Positions 8,309 through 33,981 of a DNA stretch of 41,486 nucleotides are shown one piece after another. Both the position numbers and the translations under genes were made by a program. Position 1 is the first letter of the stretch. Every line of letters starts with the position of its first letter. The notes below the pieces were generated by a model. That model saw only the letters and a list, made by a program, of their open reading frames with translations. It did not search any database and was not told the origin of the DNA. Source of the stretch: Bacteroidota bacterium (GTDB taxonomy: Bacteria; Bacteroidota; Bacteroidia; NS11-12g; UBA9320); assembly GCA_016124755.1 (NCBI GenBank), contig WGNA01000019.1, forward strand, positions 1 through 41,486, given 5' to 3'.

Positions 8309-8330
8309 CTACGGCAGAAGAAAAAGCGAA

Positions 8331-8552
8331 AATCGAAAAACGAAAATCGAAGGGTTCGTGGATGCCGTTATCTGTTTGATCAGGCGGATAATCCTCCTAC
8401 GCAATTGCTTCGGCGGATGAAAAAAAAACTGGGAAACTTTGTGTGACATTGCGGTTAAATAAAAAATCGAAGAACGAAAATCGAAAAACGAAGGGTTCGT
8501 CGATGCCGTTATCTGTTTGATTTTGCTTGCTCTTACGCAATAGCCTCGGCGG
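8331..8552. repeat. Two direct copies of an intergenic repeat, 141-bp period
   Basis: The segment GAAGGGTTCGT(g/c)GATGCCGTTATC plus following bases occurs at 8349 and again at 8490, each preceded by short AAAATCGAA-type units and each ending about 60 bases later in an ACGCAAT..CGGCGG block (8400-8416 and 8536-8552). This fills most of the 8309-8642 gap between the oligopeptidase and the next gene. A reading frame of 90 codons across it on the reverse strand encodes the same duplication and is not considered a gene. Confidence 0.7.
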
Positions 8553-15845: not shown

Positions 15846-16203
15846 TTAAATGTTTCTCCGTTTGGATGCACCAAGATTGTAGATCGGTTAGGGTTCGATA
15901 CGCAATCTCATTTCTTCTTACTTTTTTCTTGATAAAAAAGTAAGCAAAAAATCAAGTCGGATAGAAAGCTGCCCAAGCGCCCTTTATCATTTGTTGAAAA
16001 TCTGGTGAAAGAAGTGATAAGCACTTTCCCCGATTTTCTACCAAATGACAAATTCCCGCCGGGGCTATCCCGCCTTTCCGACGACCCACCCACGCGTTCC
16101 TAAGCTTGTTTTAGATCCGCTTCGCACGATTCATTTTGTTTTTTTTAATACTAAAATTGAAGTGATTGGGAGGTCGGTGTATTTATGCGGAATACATTAA
16201 ATA
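15846..16203. repeat. Tandem intergenic repeat, unit 1 of 3
   Basis: First of three consecutive units of about 355 bp beginning TTAAATGTTTCTCCGTTTGG. Inside: an 11-bp perfect A/T-rich hairpin (CTTACTTTTTT 15917-15927 with AAAAAAGTAAG 15934-15944); an outer arm TCGGATAG (15957-15964, one mismatch) paired with CTTTCCGA (16074-16081); and between them a long hairpin at 15988-16047 (CATTTG, GAAAATC and GGTGAAAG pairing with CTTTCCCC, GATTTTC and CAAATG, one mismatch). Short reading frames on both strands vary between copies and do not look coding. Confidence 0.85.
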
Positions 16204-16556
16204 TTAAATGTTTCTCCGTTTGGATACACCAAGATTGTAAATTGTTTTAGCTATCGATAAACAATCTCTTTTCTCACTTTTTTCTTGATAAAAAAGTAAG
16301 CAAAAAATCAAGTCGGAAAGAAAGCTGGCAAGCGCCCTTTGTCATTTGTTGAAAATCTGAGAAAGAAGTGTCAAGCACTTTCCCGATTTTCTACCAAATG
16401 ACAAATTCTCTCCGGGGCTATCCCGCCTTTCCGACGACCCACCCACGCGTTCCTAAGCTTGTTTTAGATCCGCTTCGCACGATTCATTTTGTTTTTTTTA
16501 ATACTAAAATTGAAGTGATTGGGAGGTTGGTGTATTTATGCGGAATACATTAAATA
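16204..16556. repeat. Tandem intergenic repeat, unit 2 of 3
   Basis: Second unit, nearly identical to unit 1 through its 3' end (the GATCCGCTTCGCACGATTCA and GTGTATTTATGCGGAATACA stretches are shared). Here the outer arms TCGGAAAG (16313-16320) and CTTTCCGA (16427-16434) are perfectly complementary. The central hairpin at 16343-16400 has arms one base pair shorter on both sides (GAGAAAG with CTTTCCC, one mismatch). Confidence 0.85.
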
Positions 16557-16875
16557 TTAAATGTTTCTCCGTTTGGATACACCAAGATTGTAAATTGTTT
16601 TTGGTATCGATAAACAATCTCATTTCTCACTTTTTTCTTGATAAAAAAGTAAGCAAAAGATCAAGTCGGAAAGAAAGCTGCCCAAGCGCCCTTTATCATT
16701 TGTTGAAAATCTGGGGAAAGAAGTGACAAGCACTTTCCCCGATTTTCTACCAAATGAAAAATTCCCGCCGGGGCTATCCCGCCTTTCCGACTACCCACCC
16801 ACGCGTTCCTACACATACATTTTTCCCCGCTTCGCCTGATTTATTTTCATTATATCGTGATCTAAAATTGGTGTA
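16557..16875. repeat. Tandem intergenic repeat, unit 3 of 3 (3' end diverged)
   Basis: Third unit, well conserved to about 16811 and then degenerate (CCGCTTCGCCTGATTTATTTT and CTAAAATTG still align). The central hairpin (16697-16756) is perfect in its inner arms: GAAAATC/GATTTTC and GGGGAAAG/CTTTCCCC. The unit ends near 16875. Confidence 0.82.
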
Positions 16876-17194
16876 AGAAAGCGATGAAACGCGTAATTTT
16901 AATTCGATTTTCATTTGTTCGTTTTTCGCTTTTGAATTGGTTTCGGGCCGGGATTGAAGCGGTTACAAAGGCGGCCGGATGTTGACAAAGATGCCGTCGA
17001 CAAATTGCGACCGGCAGGAAGCGCATTTGGTGAAGAGCAGCTTGCAACAGCCGGACGGTGTGTTTGAGCGGAAAGCCCGGAAAGCCCCCAAATAATATTG
17101 ACAAACCGAATGAATAATCGTCCCTGATTTTCACATAACTGTTTGCGGCAATTCGCGGGCTTTTTGTTAATCTTGAATGAGTTTAATATTTCAC
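16876..17194. other. Non-coding stretch with a GC-rich segment before the C10 peptidase gene
   Basis: About 320 bases without a supported gene. Positions about 16940-17095 are noticeably richer in G and C than the rest and contain a direct repeat GGAAAGCCCGGAAAGCCCC (about 17070-17090). Overlapping open frames exist on the minus strand but look non-protein-like. TAATCTTG at about 17168-17175 resembles a -7 element and TTTG lies 22 bases upstream, so the peptidase promoter may be here. Confidence 0.4.
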
Positions 17195-19780
17195 ATGAAA
17201 AAATTACTAACCCTGATTTGTATTGCCGTTTTTTCGGTAACAAATATTTGGGCCAAACACGTTGATGTGGAAAAGGCCAAACAGGTCGGTTCTGCATTTC
17301 TGGCCTCCAAAATTAATCAGTCTCCTGCCCAGCTACAGTCGGGACTTACGTTGGCTTATACGTCGGCAAGTGCGGCAACGAGTGCAGTTAGCAATCGGAG
17401 TGACGTGGTTTATTTCTATGTTTTTAATCTGAATACTTCGGGTTTTGTAATGGTATCGGGCGACGATCAGGTAATGCCGGTTCCCGCCTATTCTGATGAA
17501 ACCACTTTTGATCCGGAGAACATTCCGTACAACACCAAAAAATGGCTTGAAGAATATAAGGAACAGATTCGGGATGCGATCGAAAATCAGGTTCAGGCGA
17601 CAGAGCAAATTACTGCCGACTGGAATTTATATCTGAGCGGATCATCTGCCAATCAGGCGACAAACGGCGCGGTGAGTCCATTGGTAAAAACCACATGGAA
17701 CCAATCTCCGTATTACAATTCCATGTGCCCGAGCAGTTCGGTAACCGGTTGTGTAGCAACGGCCATGGCGCAAATAATGAAATACTGGAATTATCCGGAG
17801 ACCGGTTCCGGGTTTCATTCCTACAAACATTCGACATACGGAACGCTGTCGGCCAATTTCGGAAGCACGACGTATAAATGGTCTTCGATGCCGAATTCTA
17901 TTTCGTCTTCCAACAGTTCCATTGCGACCCTGATGTATCACTGTGGTGTGAGTGTGGACATGGATTACAGTCCGCAGTCGAGCGGTGCTTATGTGATTTC
18001 GGATCGGAGTCCGGTTACCAATTGTGCCGAATACGCATTTAAAACCTATTTCGGATATAAGTCGTCGCTCGACGGAATTGAACGCGCGAACTACACGCAG
18101 ACTTCCTGGATAAATAAACTCAAAACAGAATTGGATGCAGGGCGTCCGATTTTATATGCCGGTTTTGGCAATGGTGGCGGACATGCTTTTGTGTGTGACG
18201 GTTACGACAACAGCGATTATTTCCATTTCAACTGGGGATGGGGCGGCGCATATAACGGTTACTTTTCCATTAATGCATTAAATCCGTCGGGAACCGGAAC
18301 CGGTGGCGGATCGGGAGGATACAATACCGGTCATCAGGCAATTATCGGAATTGAGCCGGTGACACCCGGAACCGATAAATCTGATCTAAAGTTGTACGAT
18401 TATGTTTCGGTTTACAACAGCACGATCGGGTACGGACAATCCTTTTACGTTAAAACCAATATCGTAAACCGTGGAACGGGAACCTTTAACGGAGACTATT
18501 GCGCAGCGGCTTTCGATCTGGATGGGAACTTTGTGGAATATGTAGAAATCGTTTCAGGCGCAACACTTCAGGGCGGATACGTTTATACCAACGGAATTAC
18601 ATTTACCAACGACGGTGCGCTTACCATTTTACCGGGTTCGTATAAAATTCACATTTTTTATCGTCCGACCGGCGGGCAGTGGGTGCAGATATCTGAAGAG
18701 GGCAGTTATGTAAATTCGGCGAATCTTACGGTTTACAATAACAATAATATTCAATTGAATTCGGCGATAACGGTAACACCTTCAACCTTGATTACAGGTG
18801 AAGCGTTTTCCGTTAATTTAAATATTGTAAATCAGGGAACATCGACATTCAAAGGGAGTTATGGTGTGGGTCTGTTTAATCTCGACGGCACCTTAGCACA
18901 AACAATTGATATTTATGATGAAACTACCGGTTTGCCTTCCGGTTATACGTACAAATCGCCCTATCTTACCTTTAGCAATAGTTCGGTTGATGTAGAACCG
19001 GGAACCTATTTATTGGCAGTGCAACACAACGGGGGTTCGGGTTGGCAGCTCACCGGGACGGGAACATTTCAGAATCCGATGAAGGTTACGGTTCAGGCAC
19101 CTTCGATTGATCCGGATATTTATGAGCAGAATAATTCGGTTGCAGAAGCCTATAAATTAAATCTCAGTTACTCCGGAAATAAAGCGACCAAAAGCACCGA
19201 CGGATCAACGCTGCACACCGGAACAGACATCGACTTTTACAAAGTGGAATTGCCTTCGGGATACGATTATTCCATTACCGCCACACTGTACGATGCCTAT
19301 AAAGACAAGGGAAGCACAGTGTTTACCTGCGATGCTTTGGTGTCGTATTCAACAAACGGAAGTGATTGGTCGGATACATACGACGATGTTATCAGCGGAA
19401 AGATTACGGTTACAGACGGCGGGACATTGTACTTTCAGGTAGCTCCTTATTTCGCCGGAGAAACGGGAGATTATTTATTGGAATTCAGTGTTATTCGAAC
19501 CGAGCATGTGGGAATTAAAAATGTGGAATTAACAAACCTGATTTCGATGTATCCGAATCCGGCGAATGATGTTGTGAATATTAATTATCCATCCGGAAAG
19601 ATGGAAATTAAATCTATTTATCTAACCGATATTAACGGAAAATCGATTGAGCAACCGACTGTGGTTTCGGGTGATGATAACATCGTTCTTCATACAGAAA
19701 AGTTGACTGCGGGAATGTACATGGTTCAGATTGAAACCGGAAAAGGAATATTAACACGAAAATTGGTAATCAGCAGATGA
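17195..19780 (+). CDS. C10-family (streptopain-like) cysteine peptidase with T9SS sorting domain
   Basis: Secreted cysteine protease made as a zymogen. A signal peptide (1-20, ending IWA|K) is followed by a Spi/C10 propeptide (about 20-150), then the peptidase domain (about 155-395). The nucleophile is in VTGCVATAMAQIMKYW (C186) and the general base in GGGHAFVCDGYD (H330), followed by the diagnostic HFNWGWGGAYNGYF block. Two immunoglobulin-like or CARDB-like repeats (about 400-620) and a pre-peptidase C-type domain (about 635-765) come next. The last 75 residues (SMYPNPANDVVNINY to KLVISR) are a type A T9SS sorting signal, so the protein is exported and attached to the surface or released. 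I prefer ATG 17195 to 17177 because it starts directly at the signal peptide. The stop overlaps the next start by 4 bases. Confidence 0.92.
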   Translation: MKKLLTLICIAVFSVTNIWAKHVDVEKAKQVGSAFLASKINQSPAQLQSGLTLAYTSASAATSAVSNRSDVVYFYVFNLNTSGFVMVSGDDQVMPVPAYSDETTFDPENIPYNTKKWLEEYKEQIRDAIENQVQATEQITADWNLYLSGSSANQATNGAVSPLVKTTWNQSPYYNSMCPSSSVTGCVATAMAQIMKYWNYPETGSGFHSYKHSTYGTLSANFGSTTYKWSSMPNSISSSNSSIATLMYHCGVSVDMDYSPQSSGAYVISDRSPVTNCAEYAFKTYFGYKSSLDGIERANYTQTSWINKLKTELDAGRPILYAGFGNGGGHAFVCDGYDNSDYFHFNWGWGGAYNGYFSINALNPSGTGTGGGSGGYNTGHQAIIGIEPVTPGTDKSDLKLYDYVSVYNSTIGYGQSFYVKTNIVNRGTGTFNGDYCAAAFDLDGNFVEYVEIVSGATLQGGYVYTNGITFTNDGALTILPGSYKIHIFYRPTGGQWVQISEEGSYVNSANLTVYNNNNIQLNSAITVTPSTLITGEAFSVNLNIVNQGTSTFKGSYGVGLFNLDGTLAQTIDIYDETTGLPSGYTYKSPYLTFSNSSVDVEPGTYLLAVQHNGGSGWQLTGTGTFQNPMKVTVQAPSIDPDIYEQNNSVAEAYKLNLSYSGNKATKSTDGSTLHTGTDIDFYKVELPSGYDYSITATLYDAYKDKGSTVFTCDALVSYSTNGSDWSDTYDDVISGKITVTDGGTLYFQVAPYFAGETGDYLLEFSVIRTEHVGIKNVELTNLISMYPNPANDVVNINYPSGKMEIKSIYLTDINGKSIEQPTVVSGDDNIVLHTEKLTAGMYMVQIETGKGILTRKLVISR

Positions 19781-20280
19781 GAGGAGTTGTTTTTTATCTT
19801 TTACTAATTGCTTTTTCGGGTTGCGGAATGTTTAATTCTAAAAATAAAAAAGAAGTGACATTTACGCCGGGAACAGCACCCGGTCCGCCAACAATGGTAT
19901 ATAAGACAAAAAAGAAGTATTACCATTTGGTGCCGGTTATTTTGTCGGATGATAAAAAAACAGTGGCTTCTTATCCGGATCCGAAGGATGTGATGACAGA
20001 CGGCAAACCGGCGTTGCCGACACCATTAAAAAAAGGATATTATCTCGATAACCGGGGAATCAATCTGAATGTGGCGTTTATCAATAAAACGTACGAGGAA
20101 TATTCCAAATTAACGGAATTGCCAACCCCGGAAGTGATGATGAGTTGGGTAATTGATAATGATCCGTTATCGGAGTTGTGCGATTGCGGAAACCGGAATG
20201 TCATTCCGGATGCAGAAAAACAGATGAATGAACTGATACAAGCCAAGAAGTTGAGGACTCTGTGTAAGGCTTTGAAGTGA
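19777..20280 (+). CDS. Small lipoprotein coupled to the C10 peptidase
   Basis: The start ATG overlaps the peptidase stop (ATGA), so the two genes are almost certainly translated together. A lipobox IAFSGC gives Cys at about residue 16. The mature protein has a low-complexity Lys-rich start, then TMVYKTKKKYYHLVPVILS, a YPDPKDV segment and a C-terminal CDCG pair. I do not recognise a named family, though similar YPDP-containing proteins are, from memory, widespread in Bacteroidota. Because C10 peptidases of streptococci and Bacteroides are often encoded beside dedicated inhibitors, an inhibitor or chaperone role is possible, but nothing in the sequence proves it. Confidence 0.75.
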   Translation: MRGVVFYLLLIAFSGCGMFNSKNKKEVTFTPGTAPGPPTMVYKTKKKYYHLVPVILSDDKKTVASYPDPKDVMTDGKPALPTPLKKGYYLDNRGINLNVAFINKTYEEYSKLTELPTPEVMMSWVIDNDPLSELCDCGNRNVIPDAEKQMNELIQAKKLRTLCKALK

Positions 20281-20465
20281 GTTTTTGATTTGTTCTTCAC
20301 TTGTGCTTTTTAGTTTTAAGGAAATACGAGATTTATTCTTTCTGCTGAATATTTTGTGTCGGTAATTCTTTGTGCCGTTGTGTGAAGCAATAGCTAATAT
20401 GCTATAAATGGTTGATGAAGAACTTCTGAAGTATGAGTATATTGTTCTTGAAATAAAATCATAGA

Positions 20466-20775
20466 TGCTTCTTCGTTTGGATGCACCAAGATTATGAATC
20501 AGTTGGGAATCGATGTACAATCTCTTTTCTCACTTTTTTCTTGATAAAAAAGTAAGCAAAAAATCAATTCGGAAAGAAAGCTGCCCGGGCTCCCTTTCTC
20601 ATTTGTTGAAAATCTGGGAAAGAAGTGTCAAGCACTTTCCCGATTTTCTACCAAATGAAAAATTCCCGCCGGGGCTATCCCGCCTTTCCGACGACCCACC
20701 CACGCGTTCCTATTCTTGTTGTGGGTTCCGCTTTGCACAATTCATTTTGTTCTGTTAATTCAAATCAACAGTTGA
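20466..20775. repeat. Dispersed fourth copy of the 355-bp intergenic repeat
   Basis: Same element as 15846-16875, alone between two unrelated genes. It keeps the A/T hairpin (about 20530-20556), an outer arm TCGGAAAG pairing with CTTTCCGA (ending 20691), and the central hairpin at 20600-20657, in which GGGAAAG/CTTTCCC is perfect and one pair shorter than in units 1 and 3. The 3' part diverges after about 20715. The surrounding gap (20281-20877) holds no gene I can support. Confidence 0.82.
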
Positions 20776-23506: not shown

Positions 23507-24253
23507 TTAACCCGTTATTCGGTTGTCAATCATCCTTTTCATCGTGTCGAACAAGGCCTGATAAAAAGACTCATCTTTTGCATAAAGTTTATACAGTTCC
23601 AATTCCTTTTTTCTTTGTTGACCCATTACTTCATCCAAAATCTTTTTAAATGCAAGATCCCGATTCTGCGGATCTGTATTGTCCGCTACCTTAGTTTGAT
23701 AATCAGGATGTGCCTGAATGTGCTTGCTTATAGAAATGAATTTCACTCGTTGATCTTCTGGTGTAGCATCCCAACCGTGGAACCATCTTTCGTTGAACGA
23801 TTTTATTATTTCATCCAAAGGGTTTTTTTCATCATCACCTCCGTGAGCACTTCTCGGGTTGGGATTCTGCGGATCTAATTCCGTTGCAGAATCATCCAAA
23901 CCAATTGATTGATTCAGTTTGGTTCGTTCCAAACCATAGGTCGAAAGGTCAACGGATTCTAAAAGCTCGTCGATTAATTCATTCTCTTTAGTTTTTACAA
24001 TCAGTTTTGGTATCAAAAATTTCAAATACCAAAACAACTTTTCCCATTCTAATACTTCATAAGGCATTATAGAAGCCATCTGGCCATAGATTTTTACGAA
24101 CTGTTTGGCTTTAATTTTAAAGTCAGCCTTTTCGTCGTCTTCCAGTTCCAGTTCTGCATTAAATCGATTGGCTGCTACATCTATAACCGGACTTAATTGT
24201 TGTGCGTCTTCACCCTTGAAATATTTTTTACAAAATCTTCTACTTCTTCCCAC
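23507..24253 (-). CDS. hsdR: Type I restriction subunit HsdR, C-terminal fragment (after frameshift)
   Basis: C-terminal part of HsdR, out of frame with the N-terminal part at 24193-26595. Coding begins in earnest at about 24223 (YFKGEDAQQLSPVIDVAANRF); the residues before that are a by-product of the shifted frame, so the nominal start at 24253 is artificial. The region is helical and acidic and contains the family block PYEVLEWEKLFWYLKFLIPKL and a C-terminal helix ending NRITG. Joined to the upstream piece by a -1 step the protein is 1,029 aa, a normal HsdR length. Convergent with the small membrane protein gene, with 58 bases between. Confidence 0.85.
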   Translation of the reverse strand: MGRSRRFCKKYFKGEDAQQLSPVIDVAANRFNAELELEDDEKADFKIKAKQFVKIYGQMASIMPYEVLEWEKLFWYLKFLIPKLIVKTKENELIDELLESVDLSTYGLERTKLNQSIGLDDSATELDPQNPNPRSAHGGDDEKNPLDEIIKSFNERWFHGWDATPEDQRVKFISISKHIQAHPDYQTKVADNTDPQNRDLAFKKILDEVMGQQRKKELELYKLYAKDESFYQALFDTMKRMIDNRITG

Positions 24254-26595
24254 TCATAAACACCTACCTCATCTAAGGTGCCTTTTAACTCGTGCAAAAC
24301 ATTTATATCAGTTGCTCCGCTCAATGAAGTTGAAGTATAGAAGGGGTCAAAAGATGCTTTGATGTCGTCTACTTGATTGAAAAAATCCAAGACAAATAAA
24401 TCTTCTGTCTTTTTGCCTAATTTATTCGCGGAACGGTTTAATCTGCTGAGCGCCTGAACTGCGAGAACACCTTGCAGTTTTTTGTCAACATACATAGTAC
24501 AAAGTTTTGGCTGATCAAAACCTGTCAGGTATTTATTGGCAACAACTAAGATACGATATTCGTCCATGTTAAAATATCTTGCAATCTTATCACTAAGATA
24601 CCCTGGATCACTTGGTTTTGCTGTGTCTATGTTAGCTGGGAAATCATTCAAATTCATTTCATCGTATTCAATCCCGTCAACCGTTTTCTTCCCGGAAAAT
24701 GCTACTGCGATCCTGAAAGGATTTCCTTTTTCTTTTAATATTTGCTTAATTATTAAATAATAGCGAATAGCAGATTCTATATTTTGGGTAACAACTATTG
24801 CCTTAGCTTTCCCTTTAAGCTTTTTCGTATTATACACCTTGGAAATAAAATGGTCCAACATTATTTCTGCTTTGGTGCCAATGGTTTGTTTATGTCTTTC
24901 TACGTATGCTCTGAGTTTCTTTTGCGCTTTCTTCGTGTCGAATAATGGATTTTCCTGAATGGACTTTTCAATTTCGTAATAGCTTTTATACGTAGTATAA
25001 TTTGCCAACACATCCAGAATAAATCCTTCTTCGATGGCTTGTTTCATGGAATACAGATGAAAAGGCTTGAAAGTGCCATCTTCCTGTTTGGTACCGAACC
25101 TTTCAAGTGTGGCGTTTTTAGGTGTTGCCGTAAAAGCCAGATAAGATGCATTACCTTTCATTTTTCGGGCTTGCATGGCTTTTAATATTTTGTCTTGCGT
25201 GTCTTCTTCGTCCTCTTCACTTTGCCCAACACCCATAGCCTGATTCATTTTACCCGCAGCGGTTCCGCTTTGTGAACTATGTGCCTCATCAATAATTACG
25301 GCAAATCGCTTTTCACTAAGGTCGGCAATCCCATCTACGATAAATGGAAATTTCTGAATGGTGGTAATGATGATTTTTTTGCCTTGTTCCAAACCATCTT
25401 TTAAATCTTTAGAAGAAAAAGCCGGAGATACAATATTTTTAACTTCTGAAAATTCTTTGATATTTTCTCTCAATTGTTTGTCGAGAAGTCTTCTGTCTGT
25501 TACCACAATCACAGAATCAAACAAAGGATTTTGAATACCTTTTGCGCCTGGTAAGCCTTCCCTTTCGGGATAGGTTTCAATTAATTGATAAGCAGCCCAT
25601 GTAATGGAATTGGATTTACCGGAGCCGGCTGAATGTTGAATCAGATAGGTGTGTCCAACGCCATTTTTTGAGGCATGATTCAGCAACCTTCTTACCACAT
25701 CAAGCTGGTGGTAACGAGGGAAATACAAAGTTCTTTTGCTCAGTGGGTCTGTTGCTTTTCCATCAAAGCGAACGAAGTGCTGAATGATGTTAGCCAGACT
25801 TTCGCGAGTAAATATTTCCTCCCACAGATAGGCGGATTTATGACCAAAAGGGTTTGGCGGATTTCCTTTTCCATTGTTATTGCCTTTGTTGAAGGGTAAA
25901 AAGAATGAGTTCGCGCCATCTAATCGGGTACACATATACACTTCATCTGTATCAACTGCAAAGTGCACCAGACAACGGCCAAAAGTTAACAAAGGCTGTT
26001 TTATGTCCCGATCGTATTTGTATTGCTTAATGCCATGCACTGTAGCGGTTTGACCTGTCCATGTATTTTTTAGTTCCAGTGTGGCAACGGGCAACCCATT
26101 TACAAATACCACCATGTCAATTTCTTCACGTTGGTTTTCGGTATTGTATCGAATCTGTCGTGTTACGCTAAATTCATTTTTTTCAAAATTTTCTTTTACT
26201 GCTTCACTGCTGCTTGCCATTGGTAGTTGGTAGAGTAAGGTAAAATGAGCATCCTCTACTTCCAGACCTTTGCGAAGCACTCGCAACAAACCATATTTCT
26301 TAATCATACGGTCGAGTCGTTCTGAAATCCTGAGTTTCCAGTCGGCAGAACGCTGAATTTTCTTTAGCTCTTCTTTTTGTGTGTTTTCTAAAAAATTCCA
26401 GAAACGCGATTCATCAATCGCATAGTGTGCATTAAAATCATTGGCATTACCGATATAAAAGCCATTGCCACCACGATAAACGTCCTGCGGTTCTGAAATT
26501 GGTTTCATGCCACTGCTCAGATTTTCTATGCAGGTACCTGTTAATTTTTTTTCTATGGCAGCTTCGAGGGCTTGTTCGTTAGTTTTAGATAGCAT
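24193..26595 (-). CDS. hsdR: Type I restriction subunit HsdR, N-terminal 790 residues (frameshifted)
   Basis: Motor and nuclease subunit of a type I restriction enzyme, which translocates DNA and cuts it remotely. The nuclease motif is D160 with E174-L-K176 (EEIDMVVF...ATLELKN). The SF2 motor has Walker A AGSGKS (323-328), DEAH (436-439), the TATPK motif III, and later motifs VVANKYLTGFDQP and ALSRLNR. After V789-K790 the frame runs through AAT ATT to a stop at codon 801, losing the C-terminal domain, which continues in the -1 frame. The junction is A_AAA_AAT at 24229-24223. Start ATG 26595 overlaps the 3' end of the upstream gene by 11 bases. Confidence 0.93.
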   Translation of the reverse strand: MLSKTNEQALEAAIEKKLTGTCIENLSSGMKPISEPQDVYRGGNGFYIGNANDFNAHYAIDESRFWNFLENTQKEELKKIQRSADWKLRISERLDRMIKKYGLLRVLRKGLEVEDAHFTLLYQLPMASSSEAVKENFEKNEFSVTRQIRYNTENQREEIDMVVFVNGLPVATLELKNTWTGQTATVHGIKQYKYDRDIKQPLLTFGRCLVHFAVDTDEVYMCTRLDGANSFFLPFNKGNNNGKGNPPNPFGHKSAYLWEEIFTRESLANIIQHFVRFDGKATDPLSKRTLYFPRYHQLDVVRRLLNHASKNGVGHTYLIQHSAGSGKSNSITWAAYQLIETYPEREGLPGAKGIQNPLFDSVIVVTDRRLLDKQLRENIKEFSEVKNIVSPAFSSKDLKDGLEQGKKIIITTIQKFPFIVDGIADLSEKRFAVIIDEAHSSQSGTAAGKMNQAMGVGQSEEDEEDTQDKILKAMQARKMKGNASYLAFTATPKNATLERFGTKQEDGTFKPFHLYSMKQAIEEGFILDVLANYTTYKSYYEIEKSIQENPLFDTKKAQKKLRAYVERHKQTIGTKAEIMLDHFISKVYNTKKLKGKAKAIVVTQNIESAIRYYLIIKQILKEKGNPFRIAVAFSGKKTVDGIEYDEMNLNDFPANIDTAKPSDPGYLSDKIARYFNMDEYRILVVANKYLTGFDQPKLCTMYVDKKLQGVLAVQALSRLNRSANKLGKKTEDLFVLDFFNQVDDIKASFDPFYTSTSLSGATDINVLHELKGTLDEVGVYEWEEVEDFVKNISRVKTHNN

Positions 26596-27328
26596 CTTGA
26601 AGCAGGTTTTCTAGCTTTTCATACATGTTGTTTATATCGTGAGATTGATTTGTAGAAGATTTGAATTTAATACCAATAAGGTAAACCTTGTCTGAGGTTT
26701 CGTGGAAATAGACTCGTAATGCAACAGGAGAATATACTCTAAGTTCCCAAACACTATGTTTGAATTTACTTTGAGTTACGTCTTTAGTAATCTTCGTGTC
26801 CGGGTAAAATGGGGTTACTAATTCACGGTCTTTAGCTCTTTGAAACAAATCAATTATTGCTTCTTGGCACTCTTCAGATAAGTTTAAAAACTCCTTTGAA
26901 AAATTACTAAACTTAACATTCGTTCCGACAACGCTGTCGAGCCGCTGCAGAGAGGATGAATGGTTAAAACTCCATAAGTCATAACTCATTTGATTAGTAA
27001 CAGCCTTTACCGTCGGTAGTTCACCAGAAGAAAAATCAATTCCTATAAAACCATTGATTGTGGACAGGCAATATGAATTTGCATCTTCTTCACTGATAAT
27101 GGTTTCTTCACAAGTTCTGAGTTGTTCAATGAACACCGCTAATAGCTGATTTTCCTGACTATACTGTTGATATAGATTTGCGTAGTTAAGGGAATTAATC
27201 GCATTCGGGCTTTTATTAAACTGATCAGAAGCAACCCGATCAATTGCACTCAATTCAACCATGCCTGACTTGTAATCCTCAAAACTGAGATGGTCTATCG
27301 TACTATCAGCGAGAAATAAATGTCTCAT
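26585..27328 (-). CDS. Unknown protein with a RelE/HigB-like C-terminal domain
   Basis: 247 residues, no signal peptide. Residues about 1-140 are not recognisable. Residues about 148-245 look like a RelE/HigB-type mRNA interferase fold: a helical pair (LSEECQEAIIDLFQRAKD), then the strands VWELRVYS, ALRVYFHE and KVYLIGIKFKSS, then a C-terminal helix. The WELR...ALRVYF...KVYLIGIKF order parallels the LWELR/RVFY/LLHGFxKK pattern of that superfamily. Whether it is active is unknown; the usual C-terminal basic residues are partly replaced (KFKSST). It overlaps the upstream ATPase gene by 4 bases and hsdR by 11. Confidence 0.75.
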   Translation of the reverse strand: MRHLFLADSTIDHLSFEDYKSGMVELSAIDRVASDQFNKSPNAINSLNYANLYQQYSQENQLLAVFIEQLRTCEETIISEEDANSYCLSTINGFIGIDFSSGELPTVKAVTNQMSYDLWSFNHSSSLQRLDSVVGTNVKFSNFSKEFLNLSEECQEAIIDLFQRAKDRELVTPFYPDTKITKDVTQSKFKHSVWELRVYSPVALRVYFHETSDKVYLIGIKFKSSTNQSHDINNMYEKLENLLQDAI

Positions 27329-28464
27329 TTTTTTCTAAGCTTATGAAGTTGCGCAAAGTCAACCTGTGTTTGATCAAAGAAACCTGACGGCCAATGAGAT
27401 AGTTCTCCTGTTTGGTTGAATTTAATCGTTTTGAGCTCAGGTTGAATATATGATGGGTTTTGGTCAAAAAAATTGATGTTTATCAATTCAGGGTTAATTT
27501 CTTTAGAGACGGACGCGACTTGTATGCCATTAATAATATGATCGCTATGAGTTTCAATAATAACCCTTACACCAGACTGAGCAATTACGGATAAAAATCT
27601 ACCAATTCTTGATTGAGCAGATGGGTGTAAATGAGCTTCTGGATTTTCAATAATCATATAACTCCCTTTCTTAGCAATTAATCCTGTAACTATTATTGGG
27701 AGAACGTAGCTAATCCCAAACCCAATATTAGTTGCATTCACCTGTTCACCTTTTGTATAAATATTCTCAACTGTAATTTGTGCAGACCCGGTATCAATAT
27801 CATAGTTGGCTTTTATTGTAACTCCGGCCATCAGATACCCAAGCCATGCATTTACCTGTTGCTCCAATCTTGGTGTTTGGACGTGATTAAACTTCCTTTT
27901 TTCATCAACCTTAAAACTATATGAGAATTCTGTATCCCCTAACAACTGAGCAACGAATTCACCTTTTGGCCCTGTGTTTGGGTATTCATAAAATTGAACA
28001 GATTGACGAATCCTAGGTCCAATACGTTCGGCATTTAAATAATAAAACTCTCGATAAAAAATACTAAATGTGGTATGAATATTATCTCCCTCAATAACCT
28101 CAGGTCTTAACATGAGTTCATTACTCTTTAACAAATAATGTACATGAAATTCGTCTCTAATACCCTTTATACCTAACTTTATTAATGGATCATCAGAACT
28201 TTTGTTGTTTAGATTGGAACTGTTCCCTAATGCTAACTCATAAGCACCATTTAGTCCAATTTTGATACCTTTATTTTTGATAAATTCGAATTCACCGTCT
28301 ACCCAAATAACAATGTTCTCAATGGTTCTTCTTAGCAATAGCATCGCTTGTATGGCTGTGCTTTTTCCATTGCCATTTGCACCGGCGAAAACCGTAAGTC
28401 CGTTTAGTGGAATTTCAATATGTGAGAAACACTTGAAATTTTGTATTTGTAGTATGTCAATCAT
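27325..28464 (-). CDS. AAA-type ATPase of the DUF3696 / SMC-like family
   Basis: ABC/SMC-type ATPase. Residues 1-10 open with LQIQNFKCF, the usual first strand. Walker A is GANGNGKST (28-36), the signature-like loop NIGFGISYVLP (246-256), Walker B IIENPEAHLHP (271-281) with catalytic E273, and the H-loop ETHSDH (304-309). The C-terminus GELSHWPSGFFDQ (353-365) fits DUF3696. There is no TOPRIM domain, so it is not a full OLD nuclease. Such ATPases act in several defence systems as sensors or switches for a partner effector. It overlaps both neighbours by 4 bases, so it is part of a coupled three-gene set. The partner is inferred to be the RelE-like or DUF262 protein. Confidence 0.9.
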   Translation of the reverse strand: MIDILQIQNFKCFSHIEIPLNGLTVFAGANGNGKSTAIQAMLLLRRTIENIVIWVDGEFEFIKNKGIKIGLNGAYELALGNSSNLNNKSSDDPLIKLGIKGIRDEFHVHYLLKSNELMLRPEVIEGDNIHTTFSIFYREFYYLNAERIGPRIRQSVQFYEYPNTGPKGEFVAQLLGDTEFSYSFKVDEKRKFNHVQTPRLEQQVNAWLGYLMAGVTIKANYDIDTGSAQITVENIYTKGEQVNATNIGFGISYVLPIIVTGLIAKKGSYMIIENPEAHLHPSAQSRIGRFLSVIAQSGVRVIIETHSDHIINGIQVASVSKEINPELININFFDQNPSYIQPELKTIKFNQTGELSHWPSGFFDQTQVDFAQLHKLRKK

Positions 28465-29834
28465 GGCAAAGTGATATTTTGGTTTATGAGTTCTTGGATT
28501 TTGTTAAACGTGTAAAGCAAATTATTGCGGCCATTGGTTCCATAAGATAGGTAGTTTAAAAAATCGCCATCATCTTCAATTGCTGATGCCAAAGGTTCTA
28601 ATAACTGTTTTTCCATATTATTGGCCCGTATATAATCATGATTATATTGAGATAGTACAACCGATAAGGAAACAAACAACGCCTTATTAATTAGTTGTTT
28701 GTGGGCATTAGGTTGTATGTCTTCTCTTCTTATTTTGCGAAAAGCATGTCTACTTCCTAATAAGTATTGAGCGTTAAGCATGGCGGTTGAAAAATCACTT
28801 ACAAAGTATTCTAGGTCATTTTGAGGTGTTTTATACAATTCATCAGTCAAGTTATCTAGTGTAACATCCATTGCGCCGTTGTATTCTTCAATTGTAGAGT
28901 TAATTAAAAATCGGCGAAAGAGTATAAAGCGTAATGACACTTCTTGGTCTTCCATTCTTGTTGGTCGAATGCTCCAATCCGTTGCTGTTTTAAACTCCGG
29001 TAGATTGGCCATAGATCTTAGTGTGTCACGTAATCCTTTTCCAGCCAAACAATTCCGTATTTCTTGATTATTTAGTGGTTTTCCTCCAGTATTTATTCTT
29101 CTAAAAATATCATATTTCACTTTGGGAGGAGAAGCAGGATCGATCACGTTAACAGAAAACTGTGTTTGGTTAAACCATCTGTGGTACTTCGGATCGAGAC
29201 CTTGCTTTATACCTTTGCTACTAAAATAGCGACCATTACAACTTTCATGAAGATATTCAAGGTTTCTTAATGGAAATTTGTTATCCATAAAGTCCTTAAT
29301 GGTTGTAATTCTTTGCAAACCATCAACTATAGTTATTCGTCCTTCATCATCTTCAGAAAAATAAAACATTGGCAATGGAATCCGTAACAAAATTGATTCT
29401 ATCAGGCGTGATTTTTGAAAATTGCTCCAAACAAAATTTCGTTGAAAATCTGGTGATAAATCAATGTCATTTTCATTTATCATATCGTAAATCAAGCGCA
29501 AACTAAATTGTTTTGCGTGAACTTTAATGTCCTCAGGATTAAATGGTTGTATGTCGGCAGGGTTGTTTGACGCATTGATTTCTGTACCGGACTGCTCTGC
29601 CTCAATAACCTTCACAACTAATTGATCAAGTTTAGTTCGTACATCATCCTCATCATCAATAATGCGGTCATCCTTTCGAGTAATGGTGAAAGAGTTGTTT
29701 TCTAATACTAATTCAACCCAAATATTTCCTGCATTATCCATCAATTGAAATTTATTCTCCTCAACGGAATCATCATTCCTGTATATGGACAATAAGATGA
29801 ATTCTTCTTCACCTATCGAAAATTCAATATTCAT
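28461..29834 (-). CDS. DUF262 (GmrS-like) protein
   Basis: DUF262 proteins have a ParB/Srx-like nucleotide-hydrolysing core and occur in GmrSD and other defence systems. The core here begins near residue 110. Diagnostic blocks are DFQRNFVW (129-136), SRLIESILLRIPLP (142-155), the active-site motif DGLQR (171-175, usually DGQQR) and FRRINTGGKPLNNQEIRN (244-261). The C-terminal half is helical and has no HNH (DUF1524) nuclease, so it is not a complete GmrSD. About 100 N-terminal residues form an extra, beta-rich domain that I cannot name. It follows hsdS by 15 bases and overlaps the ATPase gene by 4. Confidence 0.9.
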   Translation of the reverse strand: MNIEFSIGEEEFILLSIYRNDDSVEENKFQLMDNAGNIWVELVLENNSFTITRKDDRIIDDEDDVRTKLDQLVVKVIEAEQSGTEINASNNPADIQPFNPEDIKVHAKQFSLRLIYDMINENDIDLSPDFQRNFVWSNFQKSRLIESILLRIPLPMFYFSEDDEGRITIVDGLQRITTIKDFMDNKFPLRNLEYLHESCNGRYFSSKGIKQGLDPKYHRWFNQTQFSVNVIDPASPPKVKYDIFRRINTGGKPLNNQEIRNCLAGKGLRDTLRSMANLPEFKTATDWSIRPTRMEDQEVSLRFILFRRFLINSTIEEYNGAMDVTLDNLTDELYKTPQNDLEYFVSDFSTAMLNAQYLLGSRHAFRKIRREDIQPNAHKQLINKALFVSLSVVLSQYNHDYIRANNMEKQLLEPLASAIEDDGDFLNYLSYGTNGRNNLLYTFNKIQELINQNITLP

Positions 29835-29849
29835 ATTTTACATTTCAAT

Positions 29850-31202
29850 TTAACTTTCCAAAGTTACCTTTATTTTCCCCGTTACCGCACTATCAATCAG
29901 GGTGGATTTTAATTCCTTTAATTTCTCTATCTGCTGCTCTTGCAGTTTTATTGCCTTTTCGATTTTGACAGATTGGGTTTCGATGTGAACGATAATTGCG
30001 TTTTGTTCTTGCATTGGTGGTATTGCTAAAAATAACCTACTTAAATCTGTGCTGTTTATTGCAGGATAGCTCATGCCTTTGGAATCCATTGTAACTTGTT
30101 CGGTGAAAGCATTGCTTCGCAGAAAGTGAAATAGAAATTCATCTGCTAATCCTATTGGTTCCAATACAGCAAACCCTGTGGAATAAATAAATCCAGCTTT
30201 ATCTTCTGATATATAATCAATTGCTTTTAAATATGTCCTTACGGTAGAAATAACAGTATTCCCTTTTTTAGCTATTCGTCTCGCTCTAGAAGGGGCATTT
30301 TTAAATTCGAAGTATTCTGTGCGTTCAATGCCGTTTTCAAAACTGACGCTTCCTATATCAACATAATCAAAAGTAAACGACCAAGGAGTGTTTTCTGGCA
30401 AGGAGTTTATGTTGATTTTGGAAACATATTTCAGCCTCCTCACCTCCCAACCCTCCGGCACTTCCCCAATCCATTCCACACCGCTGTCTTTCATTTTGGC
30501 GTTGGGGTCAAGGCCTTTGGTTACGGCATTTTGAATGATAATTTGCTTGCGTTCTTTGAGCAAGGCTATCATCTTTTCTTTTTGGGCAATGGCACGGTCT
30601 ATTTTAGAGGTTTTGTCGTCTAAGAATGCGGCAATGGCGGTTTGTTCGGGGAGTGGTGGAAAAGCCAAAAGACTATTGGCAATATGATTAAAACTAATTG
30701 TTTGTCGAACGCCTGAACCAAGTAGTTTCATGTAAGCCACATCGTATCTATGAAGCAGATAATTGAAGTAGGATTTATTTAACTCTATTACATTTTTCAA
30801 AACAATGTATCCTGAGCTTACTACAACGTTGATTTGAGACAGACCAATTCTTAAACTTACTAAGTCATAATTCAAGTTCAGTGGGTTGATTAAAAACTCT
30901 CCTGCTAAAACCTCTTGATAGGAAGCTTTTGTTGACTCAGGAATTTTCTCATCATCCTTATATACCACTTTACCGTAACTAATGGAACCACATGGCAATT
31001 CAGGATTGTTTACTTTTTTCTTCTCTTGAAAAACGTGTTTCAACTTTTTCAATACCCAGTGTTTGGGAATCAGCCCCATCCAATATTCACCTGATTTCTT
31101 GTAAGCTGGATATTTCTTAAATGTGTTGTTGGTTGTCTGAATCACGGATTGGCTCGGATTTTTGGATGGCACGGATTTAATATTGGGTTTTGTGTTGGTC
31201 AT
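29850..31202 (-). CDS. hsdS: Type I restriction-modification specificity subunit HsdS
   Basis: DNA-recognition subunit that binds the M and R subunits. Two target-recognition domains (about 45-180 and 240-390) start with the family signatures WMGLIPKHWVLKKLKHV and WIGEVPEGWEVRRLKYV. Each is followed by a conserved coiled-coil spacer (PPLPEQTAIAAFLDDKTSKIDR at about 183-204 and PPMQEQNAIIVHIETQ at about 393-408). Both halves are complete, so the target should be a split sequence; which one cannot be read from here. It overlaps the GxxExxY gene by 4 bases. Confidence 0.93.
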   Translation of the reverse strand: MTNTKPNIKSVPSKNPSQSVIQTTNNTFKKYPAYKKSGEYWMGLIPKHWVLKKLKHVFQEKKKVNNPELPCGSISYGKVVYKDDEKIPESTKASYQEVLAGEFLINPLNLNYDLVSLRIGLSQINVVVSSGYIVLKNVIELNKSYFNYLLHRYDVAYMKLLGSGVRQTISFNHIANSLLAFPPLPEQTAIAAFLDDKTSKIDRAIAQKEKMIALLKERKQIIIQNAVTKGLDPNAKMKDSGVEWIGEVPEGWEVRRLKYVSKININSLPENTPWSFTFDYVDIGSVSFENGIERTEYFEFKNAPSRARRIAKKGNTVISTVRTYLKAIDYISEDKAGFIYSTGFAVLEPIGLADEFLFHFLRSNAFTEQVTMDSKGMSYPAINSTDLSRLFLAIPPMQEQNAIIVHIETQSVKIEKAIKLQEQQIEKLKELKSTLIDSAVTGKIKVTLES

Positions 31203-31591
31203 AATACGAGCCTTTTAAATGTTAATGATTTGCTGCCGAAGTTTATCAATAACCCAACTTCCAGTTTATAGGCTTTCAGGTAGTTTAGTGTTTGGGCAAG
31301 ATGCACGTCCTCCAATTGAATGATAGCTTTTAATTCTACCAATACTTTGTCTTCTACAATAAAGTCGGCTCGTCTGGTTCCTATGGGTTCCGGTAGTTCC
31401 TTATAATAGATATTCTGCTCAATTTCACGAGCGAAATCCAGATTTCGCTGGCCCATTTCCCACGCTAATGCCCGCTGATAAATCACTTCCTGAAAGCCAT
31501 TTCCTAAAAAGCTATGGACATCAAACGAAGCCCCGATTATTTTTTCGGTAATGTCTTTATATTTTAGTTTATCGTCCATCGGTGCCATCAT
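31199..31591 (-). CDS. GxxExxY protein (PD-(D/E)XK-like)
   Basis: 130 residues carrying the family-defining GFQEVIY (GxxExxY) motif near residue 34 and the nuclease-like pair RADFIVEDKVLVELKA (D..ExK). The family is widespread and of unknown function, often next to restriction or other accessory genes. The start is one of two adjacent ATGs (31591, 31588), with a third three codons on. It lies 21 bases after hsdM and overlaps hsdS by 4 bases, so it is an internal member of the type I operon. Confidence 0.88.
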   Translation of the reverse strand: MMAPMDDKLKYKDITEKIIGASFDVHSFLGNGFQEVIYQRALAWEMGQRNLDFAREIEQNIYYKELPEPIGTRRADFIVEDKVLVELKAIIQLEDVHLAQTLNYLKAYKLEVGLLINFGSKSLTFKRLVL

Positions 31592-31612
31592 TTAATCCCT
31601 GAAATCTGTGAT

Positions 31613-33289
31613 TCAGACAATGTTTAAAATATCCATAATTAAACCTTCGCTTTCTTCTTCCAAAGCTTTTATCTCACGGCTCACTTCATCAATACTCCGC
31701 AGCGGTTTGTGCTGGAAGAAGTATTTGTTAAAACTGATTTCATAGCCGATTTTGGTTTTGTCCAAATCAATCCATGCTTCGGGAACATGCGGTTTAACTT
31801 CTCTCAGGAAATAGTCGTGTATATTTTCGCTTAAGGGTACATTTTCACTATCCCGCAAATCGCTTTGGCTTTCGTAAATAATGTATTCGTCACCGCCTGA
31901 ACGGCCACTCGGTTTTTTACCTGTTGGGTAATAGCCAAAATCCGGGAGTTGATCCGCTGTGCAATTCAAATGCTGCAGCAGCTTTTGCAATTTATCACCA
32001 CTGATTTTTTCTGTTTTCTTTATCACCTTTTCAGCGGTTTCGTCATACCAACTTACCACACCGTAAATCTGATTTTTCTCACTGGCTGAAAGTTTTATCT
32101 TTTCGGCTTTAAGCACCGCATCTACTTTAGAATTGAATACATTAAAATCATTGTGTTCATCTATGCCTATTTTTTTTAAGAGCACGGTGGCGGTTTTTAG
32201 CAAGTCTTTTTGCTTACTCCATACATCTGCAGAAGTTAGCTCTTTTCGTTTTTTGGAATTGAGGTCCAATCCACTTTTTTCGCACCATTCCAGAATTTCT
32301 TTTTCGAGTGTTTTAATGTCGGTATAAACTTGTTCCCCAAACGTTTCATAGGCCCATTGCATGGGTTCTTTTAGTGATTTATCAAAGCGAAGTGTTTCAA
32401 TTCGTTCTTCGGTAAACTGTGCTTTCAATCGTGCCGGACGGTCAATAACCACTTTGTAATAACCGAAATCGGTGTTGTTAAAAACCTTTGCTGCCAGACC
32501 ATCTTCGGTATGTCGTTCAATATTATTAAAGTCAAGATAAGAATGTTGAATTTCTTTGACGTGTTCAGGTGTCAGTTCACAATTTTTAGCACCCAGATTT
32601 TTGCGAAGTTTGGCAAAGCGCTGAGAAGCGTCAATGAGTATTACTTTCCCTTTTCTGTTTATGGGTTTTTGGTTGGTTAAAAACCAGATGTACGTGGTAA
32701 TGCCGGTGTTGTAAAACAAATTATTAGGCAATTGAACAATGCAATCGAGCCAGTCTTTTTCAATGATATACCGGCGAATATTGCTTTCACCTCCACCGGC
32801 ATCGCCCGTAAACAAACTGGAACCATTGTGAACCGAAGCGATGCGCGAACCTTGCGCACTTTTGTTAAGTGGCTTCATTTTGTTTACCATTTCCATCAGA
32901 AAAAGTAATTGTCCATCTGATGAACGAGGCGTCGCGTCTACTTCCTCGGCGTTTCCCCAATAGTCGTTGAGCGTGACCACAAAACGGGGGTCAATAATAT
33001 CCTTTCCGTCTTTAATGTATTTCAAATCGGTTGACCATGATTTGCCATAGGGCGGATTCGACAGCATAAAGTCGAAAGCATTACCAGAAAATTCATCGGA
33101 AGAAAGGGTAGATCCAACCCGAATGTTTTCGGGATTGTTGCCCTTAATCATCATATCCGATTTACAGATAGCATAAGTCTCGTCATTAATTTCTTTGCCG
33201 TATAAATACACGTCACCCATTGCCCGAATGTCACCTTCTTCATCCTTAATAAAATTTTGAGATTCTGTGAGCATTCCTCCCGACCACAA
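31613..33289 (-). CDS. hsdM: Type I methyltransferase HsdM, C-terminal fragment (after frameshift)
   Basis: Catalytic and C-terminal part of HsdM. It begins in the shifted frame at SGGMLTESQNF, so the nominal start is artificial. The N6-adenine methyltransferase motif IV NPPYGKSW is intact at residues 78-85, as is the following DGKDIIDPRF region. The C-terminal extension (about 280-555) is helical and contains the HPDYQ-free S-subunit-binding type region PHVPEAWIDLDKTKIGYEISFNKYF, here read as a C-terminal contact segment by position only. Added to the N-terminal piece by a -1 step, the protein would be 789 aa. Confidence 0.85.
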   Translation of the reverse strand: MWSGGMLTESQNFIKDEEGDIRAMGDVYLYGKEINDETYAICKSDMMIKGNNPENIRVGSTLSSDEFSGNAFDFMLSNPPYGKSWSTDLKYIKDGKDIIDPRFVVTLNDYWGNAEEVDATPRSSDGQLLFLMEMVNKMKPLNKSAQGSRIASVHNGSSLFTGDAGGGESNIRRYIIEKDWLDCIVQLPNNLFYNTGITTYIWFLTNQKPINRKGKVILIDASQRFAKLRKNLGAKNCELTPEHVKEIQHSYLDFNNIERHTEDGLAAKVFNNTDFGYYKVVIDRPARLKAQFTEERIETLRFDKSLKEPMQWAYETFGEQVYTDIKTLEKEILEWCEKSGLDLNSKKRKELTSADVWSKQKDLLKTATVLLKKIGIDEHNDFNVFNSKVDAVLKAEKIKLSASEKNQIYGVVSWYDETAEKVIKKTEKISGDKLQKLLQHLNCTADQLPDFGYYPTGKKPSGRSGGDEYIIYESQSDLRDSENVPLSENIHDYFLREVKPHVPEAWIDLDKTKIGYEISFNKYFFQHKPLRSIDEVSREIKALEEESEGLIMDILNIV

Positions 33290-33981
33290 GCCGGGTCGTA
33301 TATGGTCATAACAGGTGGTAGATGGTCCTTGATGGGGACAAAAACGATATGCGTCATCAGATCAATTACTTCCCGAGGGGTGAAGTGTTCTCCGGCTTCT
33401 TCATTGTTTTCTTCGTTGAATTTCCGGATCAGCTCTTCAAATACGTAGCCCATTCCCAGATTAGAGAGTGGAGGTAATTTTCTGCCTTCCGGGTCTTCTT
33501 TTTCAAAAGGAGTAAGATTGATATAAGGCGAAGTAAATTTTTCCAATACATCCAACAAAACATCTTTGGATGCCATGTGCCGGATCTGGCTTTTCAGTTT
33601 AAATTTCTCAATAATCTCCTTCACATTGGGACTAAATCCATTCAGATAATCTTCAAAATTGGCTTGCAATATTTGCTGGCTGTTGGTTGCTGTGTCGTAA
33701 AGACGTTGCAAAGTCCATTCGCTGGTATTGTAAAAAACATAACCACTGGCATCTCTCAAACCCGTTTCATCCCATTCGGTGAAACCTGCCTCGTCTCTCT
33801 GAAAAGCGAGTTCTTCCATTACGGTTTCTTTGGTGGGTTCGAGCAAAGCATCTAATCTCCTTAAAACCACCATTGGGAGGATCACATCTCTGTATTTTCC
33901 TCTTACGTAAACATCCCTTAAACAATCGTCTGCTATAGACCAGATAAAGGATATTAATTTATTGTGTACGGATTGATTCAT
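33151..33981 (-). CDS. hsdM: Type I methyltransferase HsdM, N-terminal 233 residues (frameshifted)
   Basis: HsdM N6-adenine methyltransferase subunit. The N-terminal helical domain (about 1-165; KLISFIWSIADDCLRDVYVRGKYRDVILPM) and the start of the methyltransferase domain with EHFTPREVIDLM (198-209) are intact. At TIYDPACG (226-233) the frame breaks: the expected GSGGML continues in the -1 frame, so the SAM-binding motif I is split. After residue 233 the reading frame is out-of-frame sequence (REECSQ...) up to a stop at 33151. The start ATG at 33979-33981 follows a 650-bp intergenic region, so this is the first gene of the operon. Confidence 0.9.
   Translation of the reverse strand: MNQSVHNKLISFIWSIADDCLRDVYVRGKYRDVILPMVVLRRLDALLEPTKETVMEELAFQRDEAGFTEWDETGLRDASGYVFYNTSEWTLQRLYDTATNSQQILQANFEDYLNGFSPNVKEIIEKFKLKSQIRHMASKDVLLDVLEKFTSPYINLTPFEKEDPEGRKLPPLSNLGMGYVFEELIRKFNEENNEEAGEHFTPREVIDLMTHIVFVPIKDHLPPVMTIYDPACGREECSQNLKILLRMKKVTFGQWVTCIYTAKKLMTRLMLSVNRI

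Follow-up and report, generated by a model that had tools for sequence, protein, structure and literature searches.

Intergenic repeats of a Bacteroidota bacterium: a probable lineage-specific MITE shell around a structured cassette found across the phylum

Introduction

What kind of element is a noncoding repeat that folds elaborately, stands three times in tandem between genes and turns up once more a few kilobases away? The window considered here, the whole 41,486-nt stretch of DNA analysed, holds three such tandem units and a fourth, dispersed copy. From these letters alone the original prediction offered three answers: a structured RNA, a MITE-like mobile repeat or a REP-type element. The usual picture of a bacterial MITE is that of an empty shell whose decay is even along its length. 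In our reading, which we hold to be probable, the repeats consist of a MITE shell specific to this lineage, wrapped around a structured cassette that is found across the phylum.

Results

Anatomy of the repeats in the window

The three tandem units and the dispersed copy are as they were first described (Table 1), and the A/T hairpin, the 8-bp outer stem and the central hairpin of about 60 bp are present in all four. The outer stem pairs TCGGAAAG with CTTTCCGA; unit 1 has the variant TCGGATAG. The internal structure of the unit thus stands, but its terminal inverted repeats (TIRs) and target duplications had been overlooked, because the element reaches from about 70 bp in front of the A/T hairpin to about 100 bp past the outer stem. 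Unit 2 is flanked on both sides by the same 8 bp, AAATATTA.

Table 1. Coordinates of the repeat copies in the window and of their parts
Feature	Position	Strand	Basis
Element copy 1 (tandem unit 1), TIR to TIR	15849..16198	+	printed bases, aligned copies
Element copy 2 (tandem unit 2), TIR to TIR	16207..16551	+	printed bases, aligned copies
Element copy 3 (tandem unit 3), worn 3' TIR	16560..~16893	+	printed bases, aligned copies
Element copy 4, dispersed; flanking duplication unrecognisable now	~20464..~20797	+	printed bases, aligned copies
Unit 1, 5' TIR AATGTTTCTCCGTTTGGATGCACCAAGAT	15849..15877	+	copy alignment, printed bases
Unit 1, 3' TIR	16173..16198	+	copy alignment, printed bases
8-bp spacer AAATATTA between units 1 and 2, at the target-duplication position	16199..16206	none	printed bases; register from flank comparison
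8-bp spacer AAATATTA between units 2 and 3, same as the spacer before unit 2	16552..16559	none	printed bases; register from flank comparison
Unit 3, A/T hairpin S1, loop CTTGAT	16628..16653	+	printed bases, fold, cross-species covariation
Unit 3, ATCAAG, complement of the S1 loop, possible pseudoknot	16660..16665	+	printed bases, covariation
Unit 3, P2 outer stem, 5' arm TCGGAAAG	16666..16673	+	printed bases, fold
Unit 3, P2 outer stem, 3' arm CTTTCCGA	16783..16790	+	printed bases, fold
Unit 3, central hairpin (P3 and P4)	16696..16757	+	printed bases, fold

Is the fold more than a by-product of composition? The 169 nt of unit 3 from the A/T hairpin to past the outer stem fold at -57.3 kcal/mol on the + strand (z -5.96) and at -65.6 kcal/mol on the - strand (z -5.04), and no shuffle did equally well on either strand. 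This significance belongs to the whole fold; on its own, the 8-bp P2 in this genome falls short of significance (p 0.15). The lengths of the inner arms were said to covary, and they do so loosely: when 50 copies are sorted by the lengths of their 5' and 3' arms, 14 fall into class (5,4), 17 into (4,3), 19 into (5,3) and none into (4,4), an association with a Fisher p of 0.0018 in which the kinship of the copies is uncontrolled, and 38% of the copies break the rule. No compensatory double change was found in any pair of the consensus fold among the copies of this genome, whose core is too uniform for such changes to be informative.

Two other features of the window may be recorded here. A type I restriction-modification-like cluster lies on the - strand at 23507-33981, with R-like and M-like genes each in two overlapping frames; a frameshift, a pseudogene or an assembly error may account for the split. 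An unrelated intergenic direct repeat, two 60-bp copies that are 90% identical and 141 bp apart, occupies 8321-8521, directly after a gene ending at 8308.

A family of about 70 copies with target duplications

The source assembly is a 4.05-Mb draft in 39 contigs, one of them the window, and the stretches around the copies were read as sequence. It carries about 70 copies of the element, each of about 350 bp. BLAST gave 44 matches among the scored candidates listed, 42 of them near-full or large, and a search with a 21-mer from the core, allowing up to 3 mismatches, found 71 matches where its reversed control found 2; 70 core matches were recovered for analysis, two of which are one palindromic site. 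Aligned copies start with AATGYTTCTCCGTTTGGATACACCAA and finish with TTGGTGTAATTAAGCGGAGAAACATT, imperfect TIRs of about 29 bp that follow the pattern AATGYTTCTCCG..T...TACACCAA (3' end ...ACACCAA). TIR-like sites number 99 in the genome at up to 2 mismatches (control 1), and a longer TIR pattern, with up to 3 mismatches allowed, has 112 (control 0).

Immediately outside the TIRs lies a direct repeat of 8 bp: the flanks agree best at this length and in this register, with z about 12 relative to flanks that were re-paired. With the register fixed, the duplication in 44 copies is exact in 12 and has one mismatch in another 12; these 24 compare with a mean of 1.8 and a maximum of 7 after shuffling. 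Thirteen of the 44 differ at four or more positions and have no recognisable duplication. The duplicated sequence is AT-rich, and the consensus of the insertion site, TAATATTA, is palindrome-like. A 129-bp derivative without the interior (L240 3100-3228) keeps both TIRs and an exact duplication, AATCATTA.

The element holds no coding gene, its single open frame being shifted between copies by run-length indels and changes in the linkers. We considered a coding origin for the motif, which is open in one frame (FFLDKKVSKKS...), and rejected it, since 1-nt differences in linker length and run-length indels in P4 shift that frame.

It seems clear, then, that the repeats have the anatomy of a MITE, a non-autonomous transposon. 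Dispersed copies throughout the genome and target duplications at their edges, two of the things that had been proposed as checks, are both there, and with the TIRs, the deletion derivatives and a mostly intergenic placement they bear out the suggestion of a MITE-like mobile repeat.

The interior is restrained

How evenly have the copies decayed? Divergence from the consensus is 3.6% in the interior and 13.6% outside it, about fourfold lower within (p about 1e-31, only indicative as the alignment columns are non-independent). By part, the TIRs and linkers stand at 12-15%, the A/T hairpin at 1.8% and the region from outer stem to outer stem at 3.5%; the A/T hairpin served to find the copies, so that its own conservation is biased upward, which does not apply to the stem-to-stem part. 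Since the two copies of each target duplication start out identical, their divergence works as a clock. In the 31 copies with a recognisable duplication it amounts to 5.4% per copy (CI 3.6-7.5), against which A/T sites have changed by 2.0% per copy (1.4-2.7) in the interior and by 12.8% in the outer parts. The ends are equally different in copies with perfect duplications, and therefore the variation of the ends largely predates insertion. The restraint on the interior holds before insertion and after it alike.

Gene conversion could be an alternative source of this uniformity. An ordinary MITE with a passive interior kept uniform by conversion, the A/T hairpin that it shares with other Bacteroidota being old ancestral filler, would explain a conserved middle, as conversion is strongest away from the ends of a repeat. 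The TIRs and 8-bp duplications are complete without any function of the interior, the interior-less derivative still has a perfect duplication, and compensatory change within the genome is absent, all of which such an account would accommodate. One would not expect from it, however, that divergence on the left side drops as abruptly as it does, from 0.20 to 0.01 within about 30 columns, at the start of the hairpin; nor that the hairpin covaries in distant taxa, in elements that are without the shell. We regard this simpler account as unlikely, though it is the strongest of the rivals.

The hairpin recurs across Bacteroidota without the shell

The TIR shell is absent from 245 relatives save for two stray single hits. 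The hairpin is another matter. BLAST matches on and around the A/T hairpin (positions about 51-131 of 352) occur in 17 of 96 genomes besides this one, and an exact match to the structural pattern was obtained in 7 of the 295 other genomes sampled from the phylum, with zero in the control. An exact 27-mer, sought in a genome collection of 84,980 species, lies in 24 stretches, all in records with Bacteroidota names: Candidatus Cardinium, Fluviicola, Sphingobacterium, Sphingobacteriaceae, Pontibacter, Bacteroidales and unclassified Bacteroidota. Cultured carriers include Sphingobacterium psychroaquaticum DSM 22418 and Pontibacter ruber JC213. The distribution over the phylum is widespread but patchy. 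Outside cellular genomes, 3 of 2.9 million viral contigs carry the motif, a BLAST search of phages with the element gave no match, and a plasmid search gave one weak match of 45 bp. One of the viral contigs, IMG/VR 3300003320_001090, has the hairpin motif (L245 7590-7625) with phage-like genes on either side.

The hairpin, ACTTTTTnCTTGATnAAAAAGT, has a loop, CTTGAT, complementary to the ATCAAG just downstream. Between species its stem reads CTTTTTT..AAAAAAG, CTTTTTG..CAAAAAG or CTTTTTC..GAAAAAG, and further matched variants are TTAC..GTAA, CCAC..GTGG, CTAC..GTAG and TTC..GAA. Across 28 sequences 7 of the 11 pairs of the hairpin change on both sides. The covariation score of the whole named structure in these sequences is 0.223, against 0.113 +/- 0.011 when shuffled and at most 0.090 when slid, controls that leave some relatedness; in an ungapped count 301 of 330 cells are paired, the shuffled maximum being 274. 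The larger alignment that had been called for does show covariation, and with further copies present in the genome the prediction withstands both of these conditions set against it. In the loop-tail helix CTTGAC stands with GTCAAG twice. A pseudoknot between loop and tail is likely from these sequences, short of proof because no more than two pairs of this helix are compensated.

A long helix, P2, follows in many copies; it starts at the base after ATCAAG or within a few bases of it, and closes 120-290 nt. Its place is constant and its sequence varies with the species; 24 of 44 copies have it at p <=0.05 in a mononucleotide-shuffle control, and 20 of 44 lie above p 0.05. In several species the domain inside P2 holds AACTC, a hairpin and CTCAAACAG, in that order; the central hairpin of the present genome differs, and a strict search for the motif tail joined to this inner AACTC..CTCAAACAG module found it in 2 of 118 genomes, so that it is not universal.

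The idea of a structured RNA is borne out by half: the hairpin has compensatory changes across the phylum and the interior is constrained within the genome, but this would suit single-stranded DNA as well as RNA.

Gene context

Might the repeats be cis-acting RNA elements, such as terminators, attenuators or 3'-UTR structures, that have multiplied and are selected by the host site by site? The fold is strong on both strands, the interior changes more slowly than the target duplications, and copies are rare between divergent genes: by crude ORF calls, 23 lie between convergent, 34 between co-directional and only 7 of 64 between divergent genes. Against this, the orientation of the copies relative to co-directional genes is balanced, 19 against 15 on the same crude calls. 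Moreover the hairpins are not followed by a T-run, the copies sit within short AT-rich duplications typical of insertion, and the distribution is patchy over the phylum. An oriented cis-regulator fits the gene context less well than insertions that 3' regions tolerate. We consider this explanation improbable.

The mobilising enzyme

Several family relatives carry the motif as inverted pairs 200-280 bp apart. In two of them (G015 and G012; L134, L135, L160) the motif is inverted at both ends of symmetrical elements of about 250 bp with a different interior. Such pairs, and intergenic hairpin repeats in general, call to mind REP/REPIN systems, in which a Y1 (RAYT) transposase would recognise the hairpin and the repeats would be BIME-like. 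Y1/RAYT genes are indeed at hand: 26 matches over 13 genomes, with 9 of the 13 positive, the present genome included. But the motif was not found within 1.5 kb of any of these 26 matches, and four motif-bearing genomes among the 13 gave no Y1 match. Y1 transposition is not known to make a target duplication, and for that reason the TIRs and 8-bp duplications point to a DDE enzyme instead. As the element is also far longer than a REP, the suggestion of a REP-type repeat is not supported; we give a Y1-driven origin very little credence.

Where might such a DDE enzyme be encoded? An autonomous partner with these TIRs was not found in the genome, in a DDE search that covered one family (DDE_Tnp_1, PF01609). 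The only DDE_Tnp_1 match in the genome, at C23, has ends, AACGTGAATAATG, unrelated to the TIRs of the element. Three long copies were considered as parents and set aside. C20:89075-90535 (L121 1575-3035) is a 1.46-kb copy with TIRs and an exact 8-bp duplication, AAACTATA, yet its only ORF, of 227 aa, resembles the uracil-DNA glycosylase (UDG) superfamily, with a Pfam UDG score below the cut-off; judged by its sequence, it is possibly a case of gene capture by the element. At C21:69611-71678 the far TIR has no matching duplication, and because an exact one lies about 250 bp downstream of the core, this is a copy of normal length with a worn 3' end. At C9:47970/48843 the common 8-mer may be chance. 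The missing partner may have been lost, may lie in an assembly gap or may have worn ends; in known MITE families the autonomous partner is often lost.

Discussion

How does the element compare with what is already described? At the gathering score Rfam 15 recognises only a tRNA in the window, and below threshold its best match over the array, 21 bits (E = 0.11), is not credible. A search of the open-access literature for motif strings and named repeats, with most subscription papers and ISfinder outside its scope, yielded nothing on the motif, a negative that falls short of proving novelty. Several DDE families of insertion sequences make 8-bp target duplications, and the present element is like them in that length; it differs in that no transposase with these TIRs was found (PF01609 searched). 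Another parallel is MITECca01 of Cardinium, also of the Bacteroidota, a 240-bp element with 169 copies that derives from an IS982-family element and is reported to be absent from other sequenced Cardinium strains (PMC9769881). Both are short and noncoding, have TIRs and many mostly intergenic copies, and are mobilised in trans, as we suppose for ours. For the present element, however, no parental IS was found, the interior is steadier than the ends and the hairpin is phylum-wide. The motif itself occurs in another Cardinium strain, cBcalN2. REPs, described in one account as palindromes of 20-40 bp (PMC3733652), share with our element an intergenic hairpin and, in some relatives, the inverted pairing of the motif (PMC3733652, PMC3116915); they differ from an element of about 350 bp with TIRs and 8-bp duplications, beside which no linked Y1 gene was found. 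We class the shell as a new member of the MITEs, and it is the conserved folded cassette with its phylum-wide hairpin that sets the whole apart.

What course of events might account for these features? The scenario that we favour is that a DDE-type transposase, acting in trans, recognised the TIRs of about 29 bp and inserted the element into AT-rich, palindrome-like intergenic sites, duplicating 8 bp. The tandem array, with its single 8-bp spacers, would probably have arisen by unequal recombination or by insertion beside an existing copy. Inside the shell lies a cassette composed of the hairpin, with a loop able to pair with ATCAAG, and at once thereafter P2, closing a rod-like domain. The hairpin recurs in other Bacteroidota that are without the shell, and so, in many copies, does the position of P2; the cassette would be older than the shell. 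The cassette stays nearly constant as the ends and linkers drift. On this scenario the folded form, whether single-stranded DNA or RNA, is likely needed for the element's own spread or for some function of the host or the transposon.

A bolder proposal goes further: the cassette, in several species capped by AACTC..CTCAAACAG, might represent an undescribed class of structured mobile cassette common to Bacteroidota, moving by a mechanism of its own in some lineages and packaged here into a DDE-type MITE, its fold being under selection either as RNA or as single-stranded DNA. We put this forward tentatively, and would sooner bet against it than for it.

Unlike MITEs as they are usually seen, this one has a constant interior and drifting ends, and its lead hairpin recurs, with compensatory changes, in other Bacteroidota that are without the shell. 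If our preferred reading of a lineage-specific shell around an older cassette is true, a structured cassette passes from one mobile-element chassis to another, and throughout a phylum there is a folded element without a match in the RNA library and the open-access papers searched. The family would offer a concrete model for tracing the mobilising enzyme, and for testing in which form, RNA or single-stranded DNA, the fold acts.
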